Shown here one piece after another: positions 346-1,352 of a DNA stretch of 36,850 nucleotides. The stretch lies in contig CAIODY010000064.1 of NCBI GenBank assembly GCA_903857255.1, positions 1 to 36,850 of the forward strand, given 5' to 3'. This DNA is from an uncultured bacterium (GTDB lineage: Bacteria; Bacteroidota; Bacteroidia; Chitinophagales; CAIODY01). Position numbers and translations under genes: made by a program. The stretch's first letter is position 1. Each line of letters begins with the position of its first letter. The notes under the pieces were generated by a model, which saw only the letters and a program-made list of their open reading frames with translations, was not told the origin of the DNA and searched no databases.

Positions 346-900
346 TTAAAACACCTCCATCAAATTTTTTAAAAAGCCAAAATCATTTTTCCCATTTTCA
401 TAAAACTGTGCTGATGAATAAGCGTATGCAAGCGGTTCATCAGCCAATCGCCAATGTTTTGCCAATGGATTTTGGTGTATGTAGTTTAACTTTTGCAATG
501 CAGTGGTTCGATTGTTTAATTCAAACGCCAACGAATCACGTTGCCAAAATTCATAGTTTTTGTTTGCTGCTTCCACTTCATAAAGCTTTAATTCATTTGG
601 CTTCGCAGCTTTAATATATTTCTTAAACGCATGCGCTGTATGCTTCATCAACGAACCTTGTGCTGTTTCTTTTCCATTCAACTCCAATGTTTGCCAAATC
701 AAATGAATGTGATTGGGCATAATAACCAACCCATACACATTTATTTTTTCAAGGTCGGATAAATATTTCAATGAATCAATAATGATTTGTTTCGGTTCAT
801 CATCTGCTAATAACTGCATCCAATTATTTATTGTTGCGGTGTAAAAATAAACCTTACCCATTTCAATAAACGATTGCCGCTGTTGTTTGAAATAATCCAT
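346..900 (-). CDS. REP-associated tyrosine transposase (RAYT, Y1_Tnp family)
   Basis: 184-residue HUH-type single-strand DNA transposase. Visible hallmarks are the metal-binding HUH motif in VIMPNHIHLIW (about residues 60-70) and the downstream LNYIHQNP segment, whose tyrosine is the likely nucleophile. The N-terminal VYFYTATINNWMQLL matches the usual opening of Bacteroidota RAYTs. RAYTs cleave and rejoin REP hairpins as ssDNA; here matching hairpins flank the gene on both sides, which supports a functional unit. No truncation or frameshift is visible. The ATG at 898-900 overlaps by one base the stop of a minus-strand reading frame (TAATG) that runs through the right REP and the heptad-like repeats; that frame is probably not a gene. 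RAYT assignment is strong; IS200/IS605 TnpA is less likely given the length and the REPs. Confidence 0.88.
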   Translation of the reverse strand: MDYFKQQRQSFIEMGKVYFYTATINNWMQLLADDEPKQIIIDSLKYLSDLEKINVYGLVIMPNHIHLIWQTLELNGKETAQGSLMKHTAHAFKKYIKAAKPNELKLYEVEAANKNYEFWQRDSLAFELNNRTTALQKLNYIHQNPLAKHWRLADEPLAYAYSSAQFYENGKNDFGFLKNLMEVF

Positions 901-984: not shown

Positions 985-1352
985 CCTTTTGCCATTTCCC
1001 TATCAATTCCAGCCATCCTTAAATTAATTTCGTCTGTCCCTTCACGTTTTTCAGCAATACCACATCGCATAGCGGCTATCCGTAAATGAATTACTGCAAT
1101 ACCACATCGCATAGCGGCTATCCGTAAATGAATTACTGCAATACCACATCGTATAGCCGCTGTTCGTAAATGAATTACCGCAATACTATATCGCACAGCC
1201 GCTATGCGTAAATGAATTGCTGCAATACTATATCATATCGCCGCTATACTACATTGAATTACCGCAATACTATATTGAATCGCCGCAATACAAGAACGAA
1301 TAGCCGCTATACGATGTCGTATTGCCGTAATCCGTTTTGGTATAGTAAAAAT
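985..1352. repeat. Array of 11-bp dyads phased every 21 bp (42-bp higher-order repeat)
   Basis: Thirteen near-palindromic 11-mers of the form ATnnCnGnnAT start at 1069, 1090, 1111, 1132, 1153, 1174, 1195, 1216, 1237, 1258, 1279, 1300 and 1321: an exact 21-bp spacing with no slippage. Examples are ATAGCGGCTAT, ATTACTGCAAT and ATCGCCGCTAT. In the left half two versions alternate, giving a 42-bp unit with nearly identical copies at 1054-1137; the right half is more diverged. Degenerate boxes continue at both ends. Because 21 is divisible by 3, translations show heptapeptide periodicity: on the minus strand IAVIHLR/IAAMRCG (open 900-1232) and on the plus strand RNT/RYT-type units, with stops in many copies. 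It is contiguous, without unique spacers, so it is not CRISPR. Confidence 0.85.

Follow-up and report, generated by a model that had tools for sequence, protein, structure and literature searches.

The stretch analysed here (the window) is a contig of 36,850 bp, CAIODY010000064.1 of assembly GCA_903857255.1, from the 2.97-Mb genome of an uncultured Chitinophagales bacterium of the GTDB lineage CAIODY01 (G000; its two same-genus relatives are termed G001 and G002). The contig begins with an IstB (IS21) ATPase fragment on the minus strand (positions 1-299; PF01695, 8e-28), which stops at a block containing a RAYT-like Y1 transposase (REP-associated tyrosine transposase; 346-900, minus strand; match below the curated cut-off) flanked by two REP-like hairpins, GAGGTTCGTG-TCCC-CACGAACCTC at 300-323 and a second copy in inverted orientation at 943-966. 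About a dozen REP copies (GAGGTTCGTGGGGACACGAACCTC and near variants) are dispersed in G000 and G001. The block is followed by a tandem array at 1048-1345, an intergenic stretch at 1346-1619, which is conserved at both ends with G001 but carries large indels in the middle, and a gene on the plus strand (1620-2252) encoding a 210-aa protein, here called p210. The gene downstream of p210 encodes an M14 peptidase with a Por secretion tail in G000 but apparently an RpoD-type sigma factor in G001, so RAYT, array and p210 may have moved as a block.

Tandem Repeats Finder reported only this array in the window, as 42 bp × 5.2 copies (86% matches, score 285) and as 21 bp × 7.6 copies. Each 21-bp unit consists of an 11-bp dyad box, ATWRCNGCWAT, and a 10-bp spacer, and 13 clear boxes stand in register from 1069 to 1331 without slippage. 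Eleven of them fit ATnnCnGnnAT exactly, whereas those at 1153 (ATAGCCGCTGT) and 1195 (ACAGCCGCTAT) each miss one base, and all 13 keep 4 or 5 of their 5 dyad pairs. The dyad symmetry exceeded that of all 300 column-permuted versions of the array (z 4.65). Two neighbouring 42-bp blocks (1069-1110 and 1111-1152) are nearly identical, so units seem to have been copied in multiples of 21. By contrast, the left margin at 985-1047 keeps the 21-bp register but not the dyad (0, 3 and 1 of 5 pairs), representing degenerate copies or flank. The original prediction of thirteen dyad boxes at exact two-turn spacing was therefore confirmed.

The same 21 bp also encodes heptapeptide-like repeats on both strands, and a minus-strand frame with IAAIxxR heptads is open except for one stop in the window, but these frames are incidental. 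To determine whether the array is coding, we examined the frames in relatives, an uninterrupted heptad frame or substitutions spread randomly over boxes and spacers having been named beforehand as outcomes that would contradict selection at the DNA level. Neither occurred. All six frames carry stops in both same-genus relatives, and between species the boxes are substituted less than the spacers (15.6 vs 27.1%, p = 0.02; 10.4 vs 22.1%, p = 0.007). The array aligns to G001 without gaps, while the adjacent intergenic stretch has several indels.

The same array was found once in each same-genus genome, beside the RAYT and REP hairpins in all three. In G002 (locus L010, contig C217, 510-1380) the window-type array lies beside the RAYT but without p210, and is followed by a short piece resembling the end of a gene found elsewhere (probably smc) and then by an lpdA-like gene, so the RAYT-array block sits in a different place than in G000 and G001. 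The relative of the downstream gene in G002 (48% identical) nevertheless has an array of different sequence but the same 21-bp phase in front of it, and a divergent paralog in G000 also has one.

To explore this link, we surveyed the p210 family. A first profile found members in many of 298 genomes of the order (139 genomes at E ≤ 1e-3, a count inflated by proteins sharing only the FN3 domain). Of 60 members retrieved, 43 have an upstream array of period 21, 42 or 63, or rarely 22/44, 43 or 41, all close to 2, 4 or 6 helical turns, whereas 17 show no clear array; random chunks from the window and G001 gave a 21-bp periodicity score (z21) of 1.0 on average and 3.5 at most. A second profile search across the class (53 of 395 genomes, 21 genera, E ≤ 1e-15) gave 24 new loci from other families with enough upstream sequence, 22 of which have such arrays, against 3 of 24 with any repeat downstream. 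With a strict cut-off, among 22 loci with up to 37 kb of context, 11 of 22 p210 genes and 7 of 209 other genes have a strong two-turn array within 600 bp upstream (Fisher p 8e-9, odds ratio 29), and at least four of those seven appear to be divergent neighbours sharing the p210 array. The array ends 25-475 bp before the p210 start codon in 43 of 47 loci. No other gene recurs close to p210 in the 22 loci examined, and p210 had no hit in 72,556 plasmid or 50,697 phage records. In several species (G136, G144, G159, G234 and others), p210 relatives are present in eight to ten or more copies per genome.

The p210 protein contains a conserved N-terminal region of about 100 residues without a Pfam match and a C-terminal FN3 domain (34 of 53 members match PF00041; FN3 structures were matched at E down to 3e-42). 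It is basic, with a median pI of 9.4, and only 2% of members have a signal-like N-terminus. No recognisable DNA-binding fold was found, and structure prediction from two sequences gave a model of too low confidence to use (pLDDT 36).

Despite the shared position, unit sequences are unrelated between loci. Even paralogs with p210 91% identical (loci L193 and L196) have arrays hardly more alike than random pairs (0.45 against a background of 0.38), so tight co-evolution of p210 and array was not seen. Helical phase, by contrast, is kept: in the 15 arrays whose neighbouring units are less than 60% identical, 161 of 177 units are in exact register, 11 of the 16 exceptions coming from L193 alone, and a 22-unit array of G002 is fully in phase at 45% unit identity. 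Dyad symmetry is also kept, being above that of column-permuted arrays in 35 of 48 (Stouffer z 21) and, in the replication set, in 13 of 22 (z 9.7), the other nine not being significantly dyadic; self-complementarity exceeded every cross-array comparison in 17 of 27 arrays of 21-bp and 13 of 13 of 42-bp period. Open frames are at chance level in both sets, with at least one in 16 of the 32 arrays whose period is a multiple of 3 (14.6 expected when columns are permuted) and in 14 of 21 replication arrays (11.6 expected), and column variability shows no codon periodicity (2 of 42 at p < 0.05). In addition, periods of 22, 41, 43 and 44 bp would not be kept by a repeated reading frame.

To determine whether the symmetry acts at the RNA or DNA level, we compared mispairs across the dyad, given that RNA pairing should tolerate G-U on the gene-sense strand more than A-C. 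Observed over expected was 0.88 and 0.83, respectively, with no difference per array (p 0.85), suggesting that the symmetry is a property of double-stranded DNA.

Taking these observations together, we tentatively favour, without holding it more likely than not, a reading in which the array is a cis-acting DNA platform in front of p210. In this view, successive dyads two helical turns apart (four in the 42-bp arrays) all face one side of the DNA, such that dimers of a protein could bind side by side. Because unit sequences differ completely between loci while phase and dyad stay, the binder would have to read geometry or a weak sequence preference rather than one motif, or co-evolve very fast, and the platform would most likely control p210 or nucleate a nucleoprotein complex there. 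p210 itself, basic and without a signal peptide, is the first candidate binder, although the unrelated arrays of its near-identical paralogs argue against sequence-specific binding by p210, and the absence of a recognisable DNA-binding fold in p210, the G002 array copy without p210 beside it, the 17 loci without a clear array and the nine replication arrays that are not significantly dyadic also weigh against this reading. The array, its phase and dyad symmetry, its link to p210 and its non-coding status are shown by the analyses above, whereas protein binding, cooperativity, the identity of the binder and a regulatory role are inferred. The interpretation in the original prediction was thus supported in part: selection looks DNA-level, phased and dyadic rather than coding, as it had proposed, but its 11-bp motif proved specific to this locus rather than the conserved element, the association with a downstream gene family across Bacteroidia was missed, and its dimeric binding protein remains an inference.

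The strongest rival, though unlikely, is a neutral minisatellite that slips and homogenises in 21-bp steps, acquires dyads through hairpin-templated replication errors and persists upstream of p210 by descent without function. Consistent with this, unit sequence turns over faster than p210, some arrays are 95-97% homogeneous, copy number differs, and a few similar arrays lie away from p210: before an unrelated 230-aa ORF (L226, 10472-10958), upstream of a 736-aa ORF (L228, 12220-12781), in a contig region without p210 (L231, 19085-19651) and before another RAYT (L223, 5372-5560). However, a satellite does not readily explain the strong link to one gene family and to one side of it, the exact phase kept at only 45-60% identity between neighbouring units, the absence of indels in the array against G001, or the lower substitution of boxes than spacers.

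Less likely still, the array may lie in a transcribed 5′ leader of the p210 mRNA, acting as an RNA structure or as sites for an RNA-binding protein. The Bacteroidetes −7 motif TAnnTTTG is not found between array and gene above chance (2 seen, 5.5 expected) and is slightly more frequent upstream of the array (11 vs 7.2), and some arrays end 25-57 bp before the start codon, too close for a full promoter between, so a leader cannot be excluded. Against it, G-U pairs are not favoured, an RNA hairpin does not need spacing in whole DNA turns, and a search of the window against Rfam returned no match. Intrinsically bent DNA is very unlikely: any 21-bp repeat keeps bends in phase, and inserting 2-5 bp per unit straightens the modelled path (0.929 to 0.952-0.958), but real arrays are not more curved than column-permuted ones in a wedge model (mean z +0.27). 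An origin as part of a RAYT/REP mobile element is contradicted at class level, since RAYT is not a recurrent neighbour of the p210 arrays in the other genera examined and array units share no sequence with the REPs, and a coding heptad-repeat gene or its remnant is rejected by the frame analyses above.

Repeat arrays of this general layout occur in the ParR-parC type II plasmid centromeres, whose repeats differ between systems (R1 11 bp, pB171 10 bp, pSK41 20 bp, pCW3 17 bp; PMC9426499). The p210 arrays likewise are direct repeats at regular spacing upstream of a gene, but in the 22 loci examined no actin-like ParM or ribbon-helix-helix ParR gene lies beside p210, an FN3 protein gene that is chromosomal and often has many paralogs; the repeats here are dyadic and unrelated even between near-identical p210 genes, whereas ParR binding is family-specific (PMC9426499). 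Plasmid replication iterons are direct repeats of about 17-22 bp at two-turn spacing, but no rep gene recurs beside the arrays, no plasmid or phage record searched holds p210, and units are degenerate, dyadic and locus-specific. REP/BIME elements are also extragenic palindromes, but share one common sequence dispersed in the genome, whereas the present units are tandem and phased without a shared sequence, and the window-type array pattern was found at a single locus per genome of the genus. The 21-bp head-to-tail units without recurrent neighbour genes do not fit a CRISPR array of identical repeats, unique spacers and cas genes. Dyad sites on one helical face, as expected of a cooperative operator array for a dimeric protein, are present.

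We found no description of such arrays in the openly accessible literature, to which the full-text searches were confined, suggesting a widespread and apparently undescribed variant of phased repeat arrays in Bacteroidia. Most DNA control elements are recognised by their sequence, whereas here dozens of loci in different families of the class keep only spacing in whole helical turns, two-fold symmetry and position before one gene family, suggesting that the geometry of the DNA rather than its letters is what matters. It is possible, although less likely than not, that the array and p210 form a two-part locus of a categorically new type, a sequence-free, geometry-coded cis element in which selection acts on phase and symmetry while the base sequence turns over freely, read by a geometry-sensing protein, possibly p210 itself. 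If functional, these arrays would provide a natural test bed for recognition of DNA geometry and a handle on an abundant, uncharacterised FN3 protein family. Motif-based searches would miss such elements.

Pattern searches also returned unrelated 21-bp dyadic arrays in Nostoc (L050, L051, L081, L089 and L090) and in the uncultured Bacteroidetes bin-746 (L044 and L052), several of which share flanks between loci and look like dispersed elements. These match the search pattern by design, have no p210 beside them, and a few such matches are expected among the many 21-bp repeats in 257 Gb, so they carry little weight as motif convergence. Heptamer TAACTGA arrays of Beggiatoaceae, Cyanobacteria and some Bacteroidetes (PMC4679880), like other minisatellites, are intergenic tandem arrays close to start codons and have been proposed to be regulatory, but consist of one fixed 7-bp sequence, in contrast to the 21/42-bp periods, dyads and unrelated units described here. 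A few of the present arrays or flanks (L175, L244 and downstream of L247) do show a 7-bp sub-period (14, 21, 28, 35), reminiscent of these heptamer repeats.
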